From: a virus
Virus record (IMG/VR): IMGVR_UViG_3300044720_000102
Location: 1 to 21,798 of that record
Reading direction: 5' to 3' (one strand)
DNA length: 21,798 nt
Notes under the pieces: model-generated
The model's input: only the letters and a program-made list of their open reading frames with translations
Databases searched by the model: none
What the model was told of the DNA's origin: nothing
Position numbers and translations under genes: made by a program
Shown: positions 5,603-13,206 of the stretch, piece after piece
Numbering within the stretch: position 1 is the first letter of the stretch
Layout: each line of letters opens with the position of its first letter

Positions 5603-5781
5603 TCGCCGCGTGGTGGGTGCCCGCCGGGCTGGCGGTGCTCGTGCTGCTGGTCATCCTCGCCCTGGTCGTGATGGCCGGGCTCGGCCTGGGTACCAGCCAG
5701 CCAGACGAGCCCGCCCGGCCGGGCGTCGACGGCCAGTGGACCGGCTTCGAGTCGGTGCCACCCGAGGGGGCGCCGCGATGA
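5599..5781 (+). CDS. Short single-span membrane protein
   Basis: This 60-aa protein has an N-terminal transmembrane helix (WWVPAGLAVLVLLVILALVV, running on into MAGLGLG) and a short acidic and proline-rich tail ending in FESVPPEGAPR. The start is a GTG in a GTGA overlap, and the stop overlaps the next start (ATGA). It has no cleavable signal that I can see and is probably membrane-anchored. The function is unknown; it belongs to the membrane-protein block at 4419-6617. Confidence 0.55.
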   Translation: MIAAWWVPAGLAVLVLLVILALVVMAGLGLGTSQPDEPARPGVDGQWTGFESVPPEGAPR

Positions 5782-6617
5782 CCCGGCCACGAACCGGGCC
5801 GGGCTGGCTGGTGCGCCTGGTCGCGGCGCTGCCCGTCGAGGGCGCCCTGGTGATCTCCTTCTCCGGGCTGGCCCAGCTGGCGCGGGCCTGCCGCATCGAG
5901 GGCTGGCTGGCCTACCTGTGGCCGGTGACCCTCGACGCCACCGGCGTGGTCGCGTCGCTGATCTGGCTCGACCAGCGGATGCCCGCCGACGCCCGCCGCG
6001 CCGCGCGCTGGCTGGCGGCCAGCACCATCGTGCTGTCGGTCGCGGGCAACGGGCTGTGGCACTGGCTGATCGACCTCGGCCAGCGGCCCCACGTGCTGGT
6101 GCAGATCGGCGTCGGCAGCGTGCCGCCGCTGGTGCTGTTCGCGTTGCTGCACGTGCTCGCCCTGGCGCACCGTCGCCCGACCGGCCCGCCAGCCGCTCGC
6201 CCGGCTGTGGGCACCGGCGCCGAGCGCCCGCCCGGCCCGTGGTCCGGGCTGGTGGTCACGGTCCGCCCGCCCGCCAGCCCGGCCAGCGCCGCCAGCGTCC
6301 CGACCCTGCCCGAGCTGGCGCCCCTCGGGCTGCCGGTCCGCCCGGCGCTGGCCGACCGGCTGGCCATCGTCATCCCCGCCAGCCAGCCCGCCCGCGCACC
6401 CGCCAGTCCGCGCACCCGGCCAGCCGGGGTGTGGACCGAGCACATCGGCCGCGCCCGCCAGGTGCTCGACGAGTACCCGGCCACCGGGCGCCAGGCGCTC
6501 GCCGACGCGCTCGGCATCCCGACCAGCCAGGCCCGCCAGCTGCTCGACCGCCTGCGCCAGCCCGACCAGCCAGCGGCGCCCGCTGGCCAGACCATCGAGG
6601 AGACCGCCCGTGTCTGA
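5778..6617 (+). CDS. DUF2637/SpdB2-like membrane protein with C-terminal HTH
   Basis: This 279-aa protein has an N-terminal membrane domain of about four spans. The run GALVISFSGLAQLARA, then WLAYLWPVTLDATGVVASL, is typical of the DUF2637 family, which includes SpdB-type spread proteins of actinobacterial plasmids and integrative elements. A Pro/Ala-rich linker (about 130-220) leads to a C-terminal helix-turn-helix-like region, GRQALADALGIPTSQARQLLDRL. In conjugative elements such proteins are linked to plasmid spread between hyphae; here no TraB/FtsK-like translocase is present, so the phage role is unknown. It could be a replication-site anchor or an exclusion protein. The start is an ATG in an ATGA overlap. 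The family call is based on recognisable sequence pattern, not a search. Confidence 0.7.
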   Translation: MTRPRTGPGWLVRLVAALPVEGALVISFSGLAQLARACRIEGWLAYLWPVTLDATGVVASLIWLDQRMPADARRAARWLAASTIVLSVAGNGLWHWLIDLGQRPHVLVQIGVGSVPPLVLFALLHVLALAHRRPTGPPAARPAVGTGAERPPGPWSGLVVTVRPPASPASAASVPTLPELAPLGLPVRPALADRLAIVIPASQPARAPASPRTRPAGVWTEHIGRARQVLDEYPATGRQALADALGIPTSQARQLLDRLRQPDQPAAPAGQTIEETARV

Positions 6618-7404
6618 CCGCCACATCGTCGTCGTCGACGTCGAGACCAACGGTCTCGACTTCGACCGCCACGTCGCCGTCGAGGTGGCGTGGCACAACC
6701 TCGACACCGACGAGCGCGGCAGCTTCGTGCCCCCGCACAACGTGAGCAACGTGCTCGCCACCGCGGAGGTCCAGGCGCTGCAGATCAACCGGTACATCGA
6801 CCGCCTGGCCGACGCCGAGCAGGACCGTGAGGGCAAGGGCGCCTCGCTGCTGTGGGAGCAGCTCTGCAACAACACGCTCGCCGGCTGCAACCCTGGGTTC
6901 GACGCCCGGTTCATCGCGGCGATGTACGAGCACGACTACGACCTGGACGCCCACGGCATCGACGGTCCGCCGAGCTGGCACCACCGGTTGGCCGACCTGT
7001 CGGTCTACGCCGCCGGGGTGCTCGGCCTCGCCCTGACCGAGCTGCCCGGCTTGTCGACGGTGTGCGAGCTGCTGCACGTCGAGCACCTCGACCCGCACAC
7101 CGCCGCCGGTGACGTCGACGCGACCGTGGCGTGCTTCCGCGAGCTGGCCCGCCTGCAGCACTCACGGCGGCACCTGCTGGTCCCCGCGGCCGCCGGTGGC
7201 CGAGCCGCCCGCGAGGTGTGGTGGCAACACGCCTGCGGTCACCTCGAGCAGTTCAACCGCGGCTTCGTACCCGAGGACGGCGGCTGCGACGCGTGCGAGT
7301 CGGGCAGCCCACACCGGTCGGACTGGCAACCGGTGTACGTGGCCGACCGCGACGACCGCGACCAGCTGGTGCTGGTCAAGCCCGGAGAGGTCTGCCACCG
7401 GTGA
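6610..7404 (+). CDS. DnaQ-like 3'-5' exonuclease (DEDDh family)
   Basis: This 264-aa protein carries all the catalytic motifs of a DEDDh exonuclease: VVVDVETNGL (D10, E12), NPGFDARF (D98), and HTAAGD with H163 and D168. It should degrade single-stranded or frayed DNA from the 3' end and may act in proofreading or end processing during phage replication. A C-terminal extension carries a probable zinc ribbon (CGH...CDAC, about 215-240). The GTG start overlaps the preceding stop by 8 nt (GTGTCTGA), and the end overlaps the next gene by GTGA. No phage polymerase is encoded nearby, so any polymerase partner would be from the host. Confidence 0.88.
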   Translation: MSDRHIVVVDVETNGLDFDRHVAVEVAWHNLDTDERGSFVPPHNVSNVLATAEVQALQINRYIDRLADAEQDREGKGASLLWEQLCNNTLAGCNPGFDARFIAAMYEHDYDLDAHGIDGPPSWHHRLADLSVYAAGVLGLALTELPGLSTVCELLHVEHLDPHTAAGDVDATVACFRELARLQHSRRHLLVPAAAGGRAAREVWWQHACGHLEQFNRGFVPEDGGCDACESGSPHRSDWQPVYVADRDDRDQLVLVKPGEVCHR

Positions 7405-7667
7405 GCCCCGGCCCCGTGGTGCTGCTGCTCCACATCGACACACGGAAGTTCGACCAGGCGATGCGGCGGGCGACTGCCGCTGTCCGTCGTCTCGGCCGAG
7501 CCCTCGGTGACGGGCTGGCGAGGCACGACGCGGCGATGCGCGGCCAGGTGATCCTGCGCGCCGGCCGCCGGGTCCACCGGTCGACCGTCCGCCCGGCGCG
7601 GCTGCCCATCGACGGCCACGCCTACCGCAACCGCACCCGCCGACGCACCCGGAAGGCACGCCGATGA
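7401..7667 (+). CDS. Small basic protein, unknown
   Basis: This 88-aa, strongly basic protein has a hydrophobic start (PVVLLLHIDTRKFDQAMRRA) and an Arg-rich tail (HAYRNRTRRRTRKARR). The central part is helical. It may bind nucleic acid through charge, but no domain is recognised. It begins at a GTG in a GTGA overlap with the exonuclease gene and ends in an ATGA overlap with the next, so it is translationally coupled on both sides. Confidence 0.6.
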   Translation: MSPGPVVLLLHIDTRKFDQAMRRATAAVRRLGRALGDGLARHDAAMRGQVILRAGRRVHRSTVRPARLPIDGHAYRNRTRRRTRKARR

Positions 7668-8509
7668 GCGTTCGAGTGACCACCAAGGAGTTCATCGGGC
7701 TGCTGGCCGCGCTGGTGCACACCGCGTCCGACGACCCGGAGATGGGCGCCATCGCCGGGATCCTGCTGCACACCGCCCGCGGCTACGCCTCGGCCGAGCC
7801 CGGCCGCTCGACGCTGCTGGTCGGCACCTCGACCGACACGATCACCGCCGGGCACACCTGGGTCCTGGCCAACGGGCACATGCAGCCGATGCTGTGGCCG
7901 ATCGGCCAGGTGGCCCCGGCCCTCGCGGTGCTGCGCCGGATGTCCAAAGGCGACAGCGACCACACGGTCGAGATCCGCCAGGACGGCGACCAGGTGACGC
8001 TCGCCGAGGGCGAGAACCTGTTCGGCGAAGGAGCGTCGTACACCTTCGACCTCGGCGACGCGTCACGGTTCCCGCGCACCCTGTGGCGGCTGCTCTCCGA
8101 CGTCCACCTGCGCCCGGCCGTGCGCGACCGGGACGCCGACCAGGTGATCCCGGTCGGCGTCCGCACGGACGTCTCCGAGGTCGCCCTGGCCCCGTTCCTG
8201 ACGATCGCGAAGGCCCGCAAGCAGCCGATCGAGCTGTACCGCTACCACCAGCGCCTGCCGGTGCAGGTCGTGATCGGCGGCAACTACCGCGGTGCGTTCC
8301 TGCCCTACCTCAACGGCGACGACCTCGACACCTCCCGGCACCCCGACGACGCGGTGTACCCGGCAGACCTGCCCGAGCCCGCTCCCGAGCCCAAGCCCGG
8401 CGGCGCCACGTCGACGGTGAACCTGCGCGAGGCCACCGGACTGCTGCTCGCGTCGGTGACCGATATCGCCGACGCCGCGCTCGACCGGGAGGCGCCCGCC
8501 CAGGACTGA
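7664..8509 (+). CDS. Possible sliding-clamp-like (DnaN-type) phage protein
   Basis: This 281-aa protein resembles a shortened beta clamp. Features are LLVGTSTDTITAGHTW (clamp-type strand after an Ala/Leu helix), VAPALAVLRRM, VEIRQDGDQVTLAEG, YTFDLGDASRFPR, and a late VVIGGNYRGAFLPYL, which recalls the last strands of clamp domains. At about 235 aa of ordered sequence it would hold two clamp domains, not three. The tail is Pro/Glu-rich. If correct it would tether a polymerase or nuclease on DNA, fitting its place after the DEDDh exonuclease gene. The resemblance is by eye; an unrelated phage beta-sandwich protein is the alternative. ATG in an ATGA overlap; a strong hairpin follows at 8530. Confidence 0.5.
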   Translation: MSVRVTTKEFIGLLAALVHTASDDPEMGAIAGILLHTARGYASAEPGRSTLLVGTSTDTITAGHTWVLANGHMQPMLWPIGQVAPALAVLRRMSKGDSDHTVEIRQDGDQVTLAEGENLFGEGASYTFDLGDASRFPRTLWRLLSDVHLRPAVRDRDADQVIPVGVRTDVSEVALAPFLTIAKARKQPIELYRYHQRLPVQVVIGGNYRGAFLPYLNGDDLDTSRHPDDAVYPADLPEPAPEPKPGGATSTVNLREATGLLLASVTDIADAALDREAPAQD

Positions 8510-8846: not shown

Positions 8847-9188
8847 GTGCACAACGGACCCTTTCTCGCCCGCCTGGCCCGCCGGACCATCCTCGACGTC
8901 CGCCAGGAGGCCAACCTGCGCGAGCACCTGGCCGTGCTCGTCGACCTCGGCGCGCTCGACCCCGGCCTGCTGGTCGACCTGGCCATCGAGATAGCACGCC
9001 ACGTCCCCGACGAGGCGATCGCCGCGATCGTCACCGACGGCGAGTCCGCGACGCTCCCCGTCGCCACGCTGATCCACCGCGAGGCCCACCGGCGCCACGA
9101 CCGCGGTGACCGAGGCGGCTGGATCACCTGGGGCGAACGCGCCTACCACTGCGCCCGTCAGCGCCGCCGTAGGCAGCGCAGCGCATGA
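8847..9188 (+). CDS. Small basic early protein, unknown
   Basis: This 113-aa protein has no recognised domain. It starts with LARRTILDVRQEANLREHL, has a Leu/Asp-rich middle (VLVDLGALDPGLLVDLAIEI), and ends in a very basic tail (CARQRRRRQRSA). It is mostly helical by eye. The GTG at 8847 is preceded by GAGAGGG about 9 nt upstream. Its last 4 nt overlap the start of the next gene (ATGA), so it is coupled to the putative replication initiator, which may be relevant to its role. Confidence 0.65.
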   Translation: MHNGPFLARLARRTILDVRQEANLREHLAVLVDLGALDPGLLVDLAIEIARHVPDEAIAAIVTDGESATLPVATLIHREAHRRHDRGDRGGWITWGERAYHCARQRRRRQRSA

Positions 9189-10237
9189 CCTTCTTCCTGC
9201 TCGGCGACGAGTTCGCGACCGACCCGGTGTGGCCGGTGCTGGCCGAGGGCAAGTCGTCGCTCGTGCACGCACTCAAGGCCGGCTACGTCGACCTGGGGAC
9301 CACGTCGAGCCACCACGGCCACGACGGCTACCTGACCCAGTACGAGATGGATCAGCACTGCACCAAGCGCGTGCAGGTCCTGCTGACCATGAGCGTGCTG
9401 GGCCTGGCCCCGAAGATCCACCGGCGCGGCGACGAGTGCGAGTGCCTCGGCGAGGCCTGGATCGACGGGTTCGGCTACCGGATCCACAAGTTCCTCAAGC
9501 GCAACCCGTCGCGCAAAGAGAAGTCCCGCAACGACACCCAGAAGGCCGAGCTGAACAGCGCGACGTTGAAGCACGCCGCGTGGATGCGCGACGGCGGCTG
9601 CTGCCGGTACTGCCGCAGCGGCGTGCTGAACAAGAAGTCCGGCCGGTTCAAGGACCGGCGGCGCGTCTTGCACTTCGACCACGTCGACCCCGACCAGACC
9701 GCCGGTGACGACCTGGCCAACTTCGTCACCTCGTGCGCCCGCTGCAACGAGTACAAGGGCCGTCGCACGCCGGAAGAGGCCGACATGCGGCTGCTGCCGG
9801 TGCCCACCGCGGAGGAGATCGCGGCCTGGGCGGCGCGCGGACCGGCGGTGTTCGACCTGCCCCTGTACGGCCTGGCCGACCAGTTGTCGATCAACGCCGG
9901 ATCAACGGCCGATCAACAACAGGCCGTTGTTCCGCCGGTTGTTCCGCCGGTTGATCCCCGACCGGGCGCGACGACCGGTCACCACGACCAGACCAGGGCA
10001 CAACCAGGCCCGCAAACCACCGACGAGCAGCAGGAACAACCGGTCGCACAGCCAGCGAAGGGTCCGGGTCGGGTCGGGCAGCCGCGGCCTGGTGGTGCGG
10101 CGCCCGCCGCGCCACCAGGTGGCCAACCGGCACGCACGCCGGACGCGCCGGACATCTACCACCGCCGCTCCCGCGCCGCACCGCCCGCTGCCGTGCACCC
10201 GACTGACCCCGAACCCCCGGAAGGGAGATCGACGTGA
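9185..10237 (+). CDS. Putative replisome-organiser-like domain fused to HNH nuclease
   Basis: This is a 350-aa protein. Residues 1 to about 100 follow the pattern of actinophage replication-initiator N-terminal domains: a start like FFLLGDEFATDPVWPVL, then ALKAGYVDLGTTSSHH and DGYLTQYEM, as in proteins described as replisome organisers. Residues 134-195 are an HNH/zinc module: GGCCRYC (C140, C143), HFDHVDP (D165, H166), and CARCNEYKG (C184, C187, N188, K191). The rest is Pro/Gln/Ala-rich and disordered, and its DNA holds a repeat array (9889-9956). An HNH homing-type enzyme without a replication role is the alternative. ATG in an ATGA overlap. HNH is sure; the initiator assignment is by pattern. 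Confidence 0.75.
   Translation: MTFFLLGDEFATDPVWPVLAEGKSSLVHALKAGYVDLGTTSSHHGHDGYLTQYEMDQHCTKRVQVLLTMSVLGLAPKIHRRGDECECLGEAWIDGFGYRIHKFLKRNPSRKEKSRNDTQKAELNSATLKHAAWMRDGGCCRYCRSGVLNKKSGRFKDRRRVLHFDHVDPDQTAGDDLANFVTSCARCNEYKGRRTPEEADMRLLPVPTAEEIAAWAARGPAVFDLPLYGLADQLSINAGSTADQQQAVVPPVVPPVDPRPGATTGHHDQTRAQPGPQTTDEQQEQPVAQPAKGPGRVGQPRPGGAAPAAPPGGQPARTPDAPDIYHRRSRAAPPAAVHPTDPEPPEGRST
9889..9956. repeat. Iteron-like array, candidate replication origin
   Basis: Three copies of GATCAAC start at 9889, 9900 and 9911, exactly 11 bp apart. After AGGCC come three inverted or near-inverted copies, GTTGTTC at 9926 and 9938 and GTTGATC at 9950, 12 bp apart. GGATCAAC (9899-9906) and GTTGATCC (9950-9957) pair perfectly, and AACAAC (9915-9920) pairs with GTTGTT (9926-9931). 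An 11-bp period is not a multiple of three, so codon repetition cannot create it. The array lies inside the linker of the initiator-like gene. A further inverted copy of the half-site, GGAACAACCGG, lies at 10033-10043. Confidence 0.65.
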
Positions 10238-10782
10238 CCCGCAGACCGCCACCTGCACCCGACCCGACCCTGGAATGGCTCGCCCAGCAGGACGAGGCGC
10301 TGACCGTGCCGTGCCCCGCGCCGGACTACTGCTGCAAGCCGATCGGCGAGTCCTGTGTGGACCAGTGGGGCAAGCCGCTGATGAATCAACCCGGACACCG
10401 CGGCCGCCGAGCCCTGGCCGCCAAGGAAGCCGGACACCAGCTCGACCCGCTGCCCGCCGTCGCCGCCGACCCGGACCCGACCCCGGCACCGCGGCCGCGC
10501 ACCGGCGGCCAGGGCACGACCCAGAAGTGCAACCACTGCGAGGGCGAGCTGCAGTGGGCCCGCACCCGCAAGGACGCGCTCATGCCCGTGGACGCCGAGC
10601 CGTCCGACAAGGGCAACGTGTTGTTGACCTTCGAGCGCGGTCAGCTGCGCGCCGACGTGATCGGCAAGCAGACCCAGGCCGCCGCGATGCGCGCCGCCGG
10701 GAAGCAGCTCCACCTGCACCACGCCGTCACGTGCCCGTACGCCTCGCGGTGGTCCACCGCCGCATCCCGGAGGTCCGCATGA
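10234..10782 (+). CDS. Double zinc-motif phage protein
   Basis: This 182-aa protein combines two small metal-binding modules common in actinophages. The first (about 25-58) is CPAPDYCCKPIGESC, ending in PGHRGRR. The second (about 98-172) starts with CNHCEGELQWARTRKDALMP, has the typical VDAEPSDKGNVLL segment, and ends in LHHAVTCPYA. A Pro/Ala-rich linker joins them. The second type occurs as a free-standing small protein in many mycobacteriophage and streptomycete phage genomes; its function is unknown, probably nucleic-acid binding. The GTG start overlaps the preceding stop (GTGA), with AAGGGAG 8 nt upstream. Confidence 0.75.
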   Translation: MTRRPPPAPDPTLEWLAQQDEALTVPCPAPDYCCKPIGESCVDQWGKPLMNQPGHRGRRALAAKEAGHQLDPLPAVAADPDPTPAPRPRTGGQGTTQKCNHCEGELQWARTRKDALMPVDAEPSDKGNVLLTFERGQLRADVIGKQTQAAAMRAAGKQLHLHHAVTCPYASRWSTAASRRSA

Positions 10783-12015: not shown

Positions 12016-12080
12016 GCCTTGACCGACACTCGAACGTATGTGCGACTATCGACCGGCCCACCTCACCACCGGGAGCGCCC

Positions 12081-12275
12081 ATGGAGGACCACCGCTGGCG
12101 ACCCGTCGACACCTGGTCGCCCACCGACTGGATGCGCCACGCCCGCGGCGTGCTCGACGACTACGTCGCGATCGCGGACGACATCACCAGCACCGGCGCA
12201 CCGATCGAGTCGCCGGACATCCTCGCCGCCGTCGAGCTGGCCAAGCGCATCGCCGAGGTCGGCCCGCCGTTCTAG
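12081..12275 (+). CDS. Small early protein, unknown
   Basis: This 64-aa protein has a Trp-rich start (EDHRWRPVDTWSPTDWMRHA), followed by a helix (RGVLDDYVAIADDI) and a short C-terminal helix (SPDILAAVELAKRIAEV). GGGAG lies 6 nt before the ATG. No family is recognised. It follows a 65-bp gap after the preceding gene, which breaks the chain of overlapping starts; that gap has no clear promoter. Confidence 0.65.
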   Translation: MEDHRWRPVDTWSPTDWMRHARGVLDDYVAIADDITSTGAPIESPDILAAVELAKRIAEVGPPF

Positions 12276-12284
12276 GCGGACCCG

Positions 12285-12506
12285 GTGACGGCGGCCGAGC
12301 CCGCCGCGGCCGCGCTGCCCACGCTGCTCGACTACGCCGCGCTGTCCGCCTACCTGCAGGTGCCGACCGGCACCCTGCGGTACTGGGCGAGCAAGGATGG
12401 CTGGACCGCGTACGGCACGCCCCGCGCCCGCCTCTGGCCGCTGTCCGAGGCGGTCGCGTCGTTCACCGACCGACGGATGTCCGACCTCGGCGAGGGTCCC
12501 GAGTAG
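12285..12506 (+). CDS. MerR/excisionase-type HTH protein
   Basis: This 73-aa protein has the winged-HTH plan of the excisionase/MerR N-terminal family: LLDYAALSAYLQVPTGTLRYWAS, then a wing DGWTAYGTPRARLWPLSEAVASF. It should bind DNA; as the last early gene it may be a directionality factor or late regulator. Serine-integrase factors are diverse, so that link is only a suggestion. The start is GTG at 12285; no good Shine-Dalgarno sequence is visible (CGGACCCG precedes it). The gene ends 33 bp before the promoter-like element at 12540. Confidence 0.75.
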   Translation: MTAAEPAAAALPTLLDYAALSAYLQVPTGTLRYWASKDGWTAYGTPRARLWPLSEAVASFTDRRMSDLGEGPE

Positions 12507-12539
12507 ACCGGGCCACGCCACGCCGAGCCGCACCCTGCT

Positions 12540-12576
12540 TGCCGCCTGACCTGCGGCCAACGTACGCTGCCACCGG
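12540..12576 (+). promoter_or_regulatory. Candidate promoter for the tRNA
   Basis: TTGCCG (12540-12545) is separated by 18 bp from TACGCT (12564-12569), closely matching the early promoter at 2578. Predicted start is near 12576. The spacer contains TGACCTGCGG (12548-12557), the same 10-mer repeated near the terminase genes. Confidence 0.5.
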
Positions 12577-12584
12577 GAGAGCTG

Positions 12585-12602
12585 TGTCCACTGCGGACAC
12601 CA
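12585..12602 (+). other. Small hairpin upstream of the tRNA
   Basis: GTGTCC and GGACAC form a 6-bp stem around a 5-nt loop within the tRNA leader. Function unclear; possibly a processing signal. Confidence 0.3.
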
Positions 12603-12617
12603 TCCCATCGACACACC

Positions 12618-12650
12618 CGAAGCCCCGGCCACCACGTGGTCGGGGCTTCG
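12618..12650 (+). terminator. Strong hairpin directly upstream of the tRNA
   Basis: CGAAGCCCCG (12618-12627) and CGGGGCTTCG (12641-12650) form a perfect 10-bp stem, extended by a G-T pair and CCAC/GTGG around a 3-nt loop. It ends only 5 nt before the tRNA. It looks like a terminator for the early operon; if the promoter at 12540 serves the tRNA it could instead be a processing element. Confidence 0.55.
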
Positions 12651-12655
12651 TGCTG

Positions 12656-12730
12656 AGCACCGTGGAGCAGTTCGGTCAGCTCGCTGGGCCCATACCCCAG
12701 AGGTCGCGGGTTCAAATCCCGCCGGTGCCA
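12656..12730 (+). tRNA. tRNA-Met (CAT), initiator type
   Basis: A full cloverleaf can be drawn: acceptor 12656-12662 with 12723-12729, D stem GAGC/GCTC, anticodon stem CTGGG/CCCAG with anticodon CAT (12691-12693), T arm GCGGG-TTCAAAT-CCCGC, and discriminator A at 12730. CCA is not encoded. It has the bacterial initiator hallmarks: an unpaired 1:72 (A and C here), A11:U24 in the D stem, and three consecutive G-C pairs at the bottom of the anticodon stem. It differs from ordinary initiators by C33 in place of U33, and by C38. It may be a working phage initiator tRNA or a degenerating copy. Confidence 0.88.
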
Positions 12731-12756
12731 CGACAAGCAGCACGAGGGAGCAGGCC

Positions 12757-13035
12757 ATGGCAGCCAAGCACCAGGGCCGCAAGGGCCGGCCATGGCGCAG
12801 GGTGGTGGCCGCGGTCAAGGCCAGCTCGAAGGTCTGCCACCTGTGCGGCCACGAGATCGACCACACCCTGCCGAAGGAACACCCGTACTCCTACACCACC
12901 GACCACGTGCAGCCCAGGTCACGAGACGGTGCGCCGTCGGTGGCCAACGGCCGCCCGGCTCACCGGTCGTGCAACTCCCGCAAGGGCAACAGGACCGGGC
13001 AGGCCGTGCCCTTCCGTCGCACGCGGGTGTGGTGA
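12757..13035 (+). CDS. HNH endonuclease, packaging-associated
   Basis: This 92-aa protein is almost all HNH domain: CHLCG (C27, C30), TTDHVQPRSRDG (D49, H50), N64, HRSCNSRKGN (C72, N73, K76). Such small HNH proteins sit beside terminase genes in many HK97-type phages, and in HK97 the equivalent is needed with the terminase for cos cleavage. Its position directly before the small-terminase candidate matches this. The N terminus is basic (KHQGRKGRPWRR). GAGGGAG lies 7 nt before the ATG. A homing enzyme is possible but less likely at this place. Confidence 0.9.
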   Translation: MAAKHQGRKGRPWRRVVAAVKASSKVCHLCGHEIDHTLPKEHPYSYTTDHVQPRSRDGAPSVANGRPAHRSCNSRKGNRTGQAVPFRRTRVW

Positions 13036-13206
13036 CCGCCCTGCCAAGCCCCCTGATGAGGGTCCGCGGACGCGGGGCGCTGACCTGCAGGTATGGGCGC
13101 CTAGGCCTCTGACCTGCGGTTTCTTTTGACCTGCGGTAGGGGGACCCCGCCCCAGGCCTCCCTTTTTTTCTCCCCGGAAGCGCCCAGATTGGGGGATCTG
13201 ATCACC
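13036..13206. other. Intergenic region, candidate cos site
   Basis: 171 bp without a gene lie between the HNH and small-terminase genes. They contain a 10-bp palindrome GTCCGCGGAC (13062-13071), a TGACCTGC repeat series (13081, 13110, 13127), a short GGGGG/CCCC symmetry at 13139-13148, AGGCCTC twice, and a run of seven T (13163-13169) after GC-rich sequence. This is where cos lies in related phages. The exact cut point cannot be deduced. Confidence 0.45.
13081..13137 (+). repeat. TGACCTGC direct repeats
   Basis: TGACCTGCGGT occurs exactly at 13110-13120 and 13127-13137, 17 bp apart, and a variant TGACCTGCAGG at 13081-13091. A fourth copy of the core TGACCTGCGG is at 12548-12557. They are outside coding sequence and could be binding sites for the HTH-bearing small terminase (cosB-like). 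Confidence 0.6.

Follow-up and report, generated by a model that had tools for sequence, protein, structure and literature searches.

A candidate lytic replication origin of helically phased iterons and a G-tract inside the initiator-like HNH gene of a viral sequence

The window analyzed here is the whole stretch of 21,798 nucleotides of the IMG/VR virus record IMGVR_UViG_3300044720_000102, and the features of the locus under study are collected in Table 1. According to Pfam and PHROGs, the central gene encodes an HNH endonuclease, although the HNH domain spans only residues 140 to 194. It is preceded by an N-terminal domain and followed by a disordered tail, whose coding sequence carries both the iterons and the G-tract; the array sits in the last third of the gene. 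The CxxC pairs and the D-H motif of the HNH domain are present, with C140, C143, D165, H166, C184, C187, and N188 invariant. Its best foldseek matches were mostly Cas9 HNH domains, none of them at an E value of ≤0.001. The N-terminal domain together with the HNH domain matched only HNH domains in the PDB, and the N-terminal domain alone found no fold match among the solved structures deposited there.

Table 1. Features of the initiator-like gene and its surroundings (positions in the window)
Feature	Position	Strand	Basis or remark
Initiator-like HNH protein gene, 350 aa	9185..10237	+	Pfam HNH 3.9e-5; phrog_15463 1.7e-15; homologues and tree
N-terminal initiator-like domain, residues 1-119	9185..9541	+	AF2 pLDDT 91.3; hhalign
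HNH nuclease domain, residues 140-194	9602..9766	+	Pfam PF01844, 24.1 bits, above curated cut-off
Iteron cluster I, GATCAAC x3	9889..9917	+	11-bp period; sites cycle through all reading frames
Iteron cluster II, inverted	9926..9956	-	GAACAAC, GAACAAC, GATCAAC on the - strand; 12-bp period
Iteron cluster III, single GAACAAC	10034..10040	+	Homologues have one or two + sites near the same position
G-tract GGGTCCGGGTCGGGTCGGG, 5-bp unit, potentially G-quadruplex forming	10060..10078	+	Codon test; IMG/VR scan
Inverted repeat, 15-bp arms, 93% complementary	10088..10119	.	Directly after the G-tract
Second, inverted G-tract	10258..10270	-	CCCGACCCGACCC on the + strand; at start of next gene

The predicted order of elements in the N-terminal domain is helix-helix-(strand)-helix-helix-strand-strand, as in winged helices. 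By hhalign, this domain aligns with annotated actinophage replication initiation proteins and their relatives (probability of 95.6%, E value of 1.3e-8), which come from phages of Microbacterium, Gordonia, Mycobacterium, Streptomyces, Propionibacterium, and Arthrobacter. The initiators with this homologous N-terminal domain belong to PHROG 2447/3926, examples being Microbacterium Appa gp42, Gordonia GMA1 gp64, and the RepA-like protein of the Mycobacterium abscessus phage phiGD23-1. The window's own N-terminal domain fell below the threshold in the comparison with PHROG 2447, annotated as "replication initiation protein," and this connection runs through intermediates: homologues of the window protein do match the family (L059, 1.7e-20; L055, 5.5e-13; L065, 4.8e-5; L042, 2e-4), and a third, HNH-bearing group from Gordonia and Arthrobacter phages, which itself matches PHROG 2447 at up to 1.7e-20, connects the window's family with the replication initiation proteins. 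The initiator genes of Appa and of 1191A lie two genes ahead of the DnaB helicase gene, and no other initiator, helicase, or primase was recognized among the ORFs scanned in the window. Judged by homology only, the gene would thus encode a replication initiator, in agreement with the initial annotation, which had called it initiator-like.

Direct reading confirmed the positions at which that annotation had placed the six main repeats: GATCAAC is read on the plus strand at 9889-9895, 9900-9906, and 9911-9917, and cluster II appears on the same strand as GTTGTTC (9926-9932 and 9938-9944) and GTTGATC (9950-9956). What had been described as a half-site at 10033 is instead GAACAAC at 10034-10040. 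The 11-bp period first ascribed to the whole array holds for its left half, whereas the right half is spaced at 12 bp; likewise, the argument that the period is not a multiple of three, and therefore not explained by protein repetition, is limited to the left half, since in the right half the 12-bp period corresponds to whole codons (peptide VVPPVVPPVDP).

Across the 21.8-kb window, GATCAAC occurs 6 times against 1.4 expected, a count that none of 100 shuffles equaled, and four of the six copies fall within 68 bp. The tail of the gene contains 8 GAWCA/TGWTC sites, compared with 3.3 under synonymous shuffles (p=0.0025), and 4 same-strand pairs at 11 or 12 bp, compared with 0.45 (reached in 0 of 2000 synonymous shuffles), but the core GAWCA was first spotted in the window itself, and the window's own p-value is therefore not fully independent. 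Because a generic test of the commonest 7-mer in the window alone was not significant against synonymous shuffles (p=0.086), much of the weight is borne by the comparison within the family. A held-out motif model counts as weak, since at a lax threshold the array, with its peak of 10 sites, barely exceeds the next best place, with 9.

The family sample comprised 22 distinct members with a readable tail, window included, which were drawn from viral contigs, bacterial genomes, and one family-wide genome search. In all 22 of them, the part of the tail that separates the HNH domain from the G-rich motif carries short repeats, with site cores of GAWCA in 16 members and GACAA-like in 6. The sixteen GAWCA members were grouped by core, and spacing and inversion played no part in the grouping. 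Together they hold 166 sites, against 77 under synonymous shuffles, and 59 same-strand pairs at 11 or 12 bp, against 7.7 ± 2.5, the largest pair count among 2000 synonymous shuffles being 18. The distances between paired sites concentrate at 11-12, 22-24, and 33-36 bp (none at 10, none at 14, and two at 13 bp), which places the sites on approximately the same side of the helix. Typically, about 17 bp separate a forward cluster (11 bp) from an inverted cluster (12 bp), and a spacer of 50 to 80 bp, one or two forward sites, and the G-rich motif come next; one homologue, L014, has no phased pairs.

The nearest relative, found in a Umezawaea prophage (L010) and 59% identical, has its sites at the window's exact offsets of 0, 11, 22, 37, 49, and 61, where the inverted ones read GTTGATC, GTTGAAC, and ACTGATC, while the peptide encoded over the sites is DVDRGVERRTDP in L010 and AVVPPVVPPVDP in the window. 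Position, helical spacing, and inverted layout are kept in homologues though the peptide changes, which is the conservation at the DNA level that had been named at the outset as a check. These data also bear on whether the repeats merely mirror a repetitive Pro/Asp/Thr-rich peptide in a low-complexity tail, as might be proposed from the in-frame right half and from the homologues, several in number, with peptide repeats such as DN, TD, and ADP. We consider this highly improbable, since the left-half sites fall in all reading frames, the inverted sites match the forward ones, the offsets of L010 are maintained with a different peptide, and synonymous shuffles are exceeded nearly eightfold.

The type of site, GATCA or GACAA, does not strictly match the tree of the N-terminal domains, on which it changes three times, two of these changes being forced; in L029 and L025, it switches without a matching N-domain clade. 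Few residues may decide the specificity, or another protein may bind. An origin at which some other host or phage protein, and not the HNH gene product, occupies the iterons would account for these switches, and this reading, which overlaps on the origin itself with the one we prefer, is unlikely in our judgment: a change of few residues could switch the specificity, and every phage has a different set of iterons within its initiator gene, the pattern to be anticipated when protein and sites evolve jointly. In the same kind of HNH gene of Rothia phage Spartoi (gp51; L069, 1635-3251), we observed several identical repeats of about 46 bp (AAAGTGTGCCCCGCTCCGAGGCATCGGAAGGTATAAAGGTCTGCC) and no G-tract.

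The G-tract, (GGGWC)n, which lies about 20 to 50 bp downstream of the iterons, is the most widely shared part of the arrangement and had been omitted from the initial annotation. The region encodes GxGRVG, and codon usage would let its DNA, GGTCGGGTCGGG, vary more than it does. In the 22 homologues, GGC accounts for 12 of 70 Gly codons inside the motif versus 321 of 522 outside (p=1e-12), and CGG for 19 of 19 Arg codons inside versus 226 of 776 outside (p=1e-10). This test on the aligned motif was used instead of GGG-run counts per gene, which were weak against synonymous shuffles (p<0.05 in 17/42). Since its unit is 5 bp long, the tract does not derive from a codon repeat, and this, like the bias of its codons, speaks against the peptide-based explanation discussed above. 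In the window, a second tract, GGGTCGGGTCGGG on the opposite strand, lies about 180 bp past the first and forms with it a perfect inverted pair spanning the gene junction; it is absent from the homologues checked.

Corynebacterium Poushou, Gordonia Nyceirae, Arthrobacter Maja, and Brevibacterium AGM9 have the tract in this gene as well; Spartoi is without a tract, and L032 has only a poor one. In some of these named phages, it comes after far longer repeats. In the AGM phages of Brevibacterium aurantiacum, the family is represented by an HNH gene whose tail contains annotated repeats and then the G-tract, but these phages differ from the window in the length of the repeat units (198-bp tandem repeats, five of which are annotated in AGM9). 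As far as can be judged from its citation in PMC9331655, de Melo et al. (2020, Environ Microbiol 22:3413) deals with the tandem repeats of the AGM phages. Our literature search, for which most subscription journals were out of reach, found no description of the G-tract.

The genes of the PHROG 2447/3926 initiators also hold a G-tract with a unit of 5 to 6 bp, often with iterons and a hairpin, but they lack the HNH domain and bear the tract on the opposite strand, as (CCCGA)n in GMA1 and Kroos, (CCCAA)n in Cerasum, and (CCCGT)n in Appa. Since the peptides encoded over these tracts differ (PDPTR, PNPTQ, and VPSRP), it is the DNA that is kept. We scanned 2.9 million viral contigs (IMG/VR) with the strict tract pattern GGGWCGGGWCGGGWCGGG, using no protein, and obtained at least 80 loci. 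Among the matches listed, the tract lies inside an ORF matching the initiator profiles in 51 of 80 cases, whereas 7.7 would be expected from the length of the initiator-matching ORFs. Of the 13 HNH-type genes among these matches, 12 have the tract on the coding strand, and 37 of the 38 HNH-less initiators have it on the opposite strand. Also among the matches listed, 17 of the 38 HNH-less genes exceed synonymous shuffles in repeats at a lag of 10 to 13 bp upstream of the tract. A hairpin within 60 bp downstream is seen in 16 of the 38, mostly directly after the tract, and examples of its loop are TAAC and TAC. Such a hairpin is not a general rule, given that only 1 of the 13 HNH-type genes among the matches listed has one.

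No initiator was recognized at 23 of the 80 tract loci among the matches listed; several of these are low-GC contigs and may have no relation to the family, and L128, with a hairpin and a tract, may hold a diverged initiator. Several long GGGTC tracts were seen at L148 (4223-5918), and likewise at L142, L126, and L138 (GC of 0.50 to 0.53, no initiator recognized), which are possibly other elements using the same GGGTC repeat.

HNH proteins near terminase are known packaging partners, and in the window the large subunit of terminase (13.8 kb) is encoded about 3.6 kb downstream of the HNH gene. The array and G-tract might accordingly be a pac or cos recognition site and the HNH protein a terminase-associated nuclease, similar to gp74 of HK97. 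The adjacency to cos and terminase expected of a gp74-type protein was not found at this distance, and the N-terminal domain is initiator-like. In Gordonia Bunker and Arthrobacter Elesar, moreover, a separate small HNH gene occupies the genome end and the gene of the present family lies about 3 kb away, while in HNH-less initiators the tract is far from the ends (26 of 38.7 kb in Appa, 45 of 58 kb in Kroos). With another HNH gene at the end of genomes that carry this same gene, and with the tract well inside others, a packaging site is very unlikely. Between the replication region and the terminase, the window contains a tRNA-Met gene (anticodon CAT, 12656-12731), overlain by a long ORF (12038-13129) with odd codon-position GC that is probably spurious.

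Iterons of 11 to 12 bp with inverted halves resemble plasmid centromeres, and the window encodes an HTH repressor (1996-2481). That a ParR/Omega-like protein or a phage repressor binds the array as a partition centromere or an operator nonetheless seems scarcely probable. The window carries a serine integrase and no recognized ParA/ParM-like gene, which points to stable inheritance by integration, and the arrays lie inside initiator-family genes of divergent phages with different iteron sequences.

We therefore favor, with a probability of roughly 80%, the reading that the array is where the initiator binds at an origin of lytic replication, and that this origin lies within the 3' part of the initiator's own gene, in the manner of lambda gene O. 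Iterons and G-tract are conserved at the DNA level and are placed in an initiator-family gene, and an initiator-specific origin is suggested because the iterons vary by phage, each in its own initiator gene, with a common element downstream. The lambda origin is located within gene O (PMC6022878), and the origins of lambdoid phages contain iterons (PMC7466680). As in lambda, tandem iterons lie in the window inside the coding region of a phage gene, that of the putative initiator predicted to bind them. Unlike lambda, the window protein has an HNH domain, the array is built of two inverted halves with 7-bp cores spaced at 11 or 12 bp, and the iterons are followed by a G-tract, with no obvious AT-rich stretch. 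No relation of the window protein to the lambda O family was seen. The GC content of the array region is within the 0 to 14th percentile of its locus, yet amounts to 57 to 68%, and no strongly AT-rich unwinding element was found beside the iterons. GC skew, which had also been suggested as a check, shows no switch at 9.9 kb.

Under the preferred reading, the winged-helix-like N-terminal domain would bind the helically phased iterons, with cluster I on one strand, the inverted cluster II, and cluster III near the tract as binding sites, and would wrap or bend the DNA. The DNA between the iterons and the G-tract, which is locally poorer in GC, might then melt, and either the G-rich strand exposed in this way, possibly in a folded form, or the hairpin next to it could help to load the host helicase and primase. 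The HNH domain would perhaps serve in nicking, for later replication or processing.

In extrachromosomal mycobacterial prophages, the RepA origin is thought to lie upstream of or within repA, and no repeats were identified there by the authors (PMC7157519); these origins serve prophage maintenance and not, as proposed for the window, lytic growth. The RepA proteins of Miko and Rachaly were considered as experimental support and set aside, as no match to the present initiator family was found, and the RepA phages Miko, Rachaly, and Jeeves are absent among the matches to the phiGD23-1 initiator.

To our knowledge, the origins of actinobacteriophages are largely unmapped. The chances seem to us evenly balanced that actinobacterial phages share an undescribed class of lytic origin, in which phage-specific iterons and a (GGGWC)n tract reside in the initiator gene, with the tract on the coding strand where an HNH nuclease is present and on the template strand, often then with a hairpin, where it is not. 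What the host machinery reads in all of them would be the G-rich strand, and the direction in which helicase is first loaded may depend on which of the two strands is the G-rich one. If so, sequence alone would be enough to find the origin in many sequenced actinophages whose gene at this place is now filed as "HNH endonuclease" or "hypothetical protein." The strand preference of the G-tract would then hint at how the helicase and primase of high-GC hosts get recruited, and the embedded origins could supply small replicons for actinobacterial genetics.

Elsewhere in the window, a protein with a phrog_6152 match (7664-8509) adjoins a DnaQ-like exonuclease (6610-7404). It was considered as a sliding clamp, but the relation to the annotated clamp Elesar gp47 is unconvincing (E=0.044). 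At 5610-6617, the window encodes a DUF2637 protein with a PHROG match to "excisionase."
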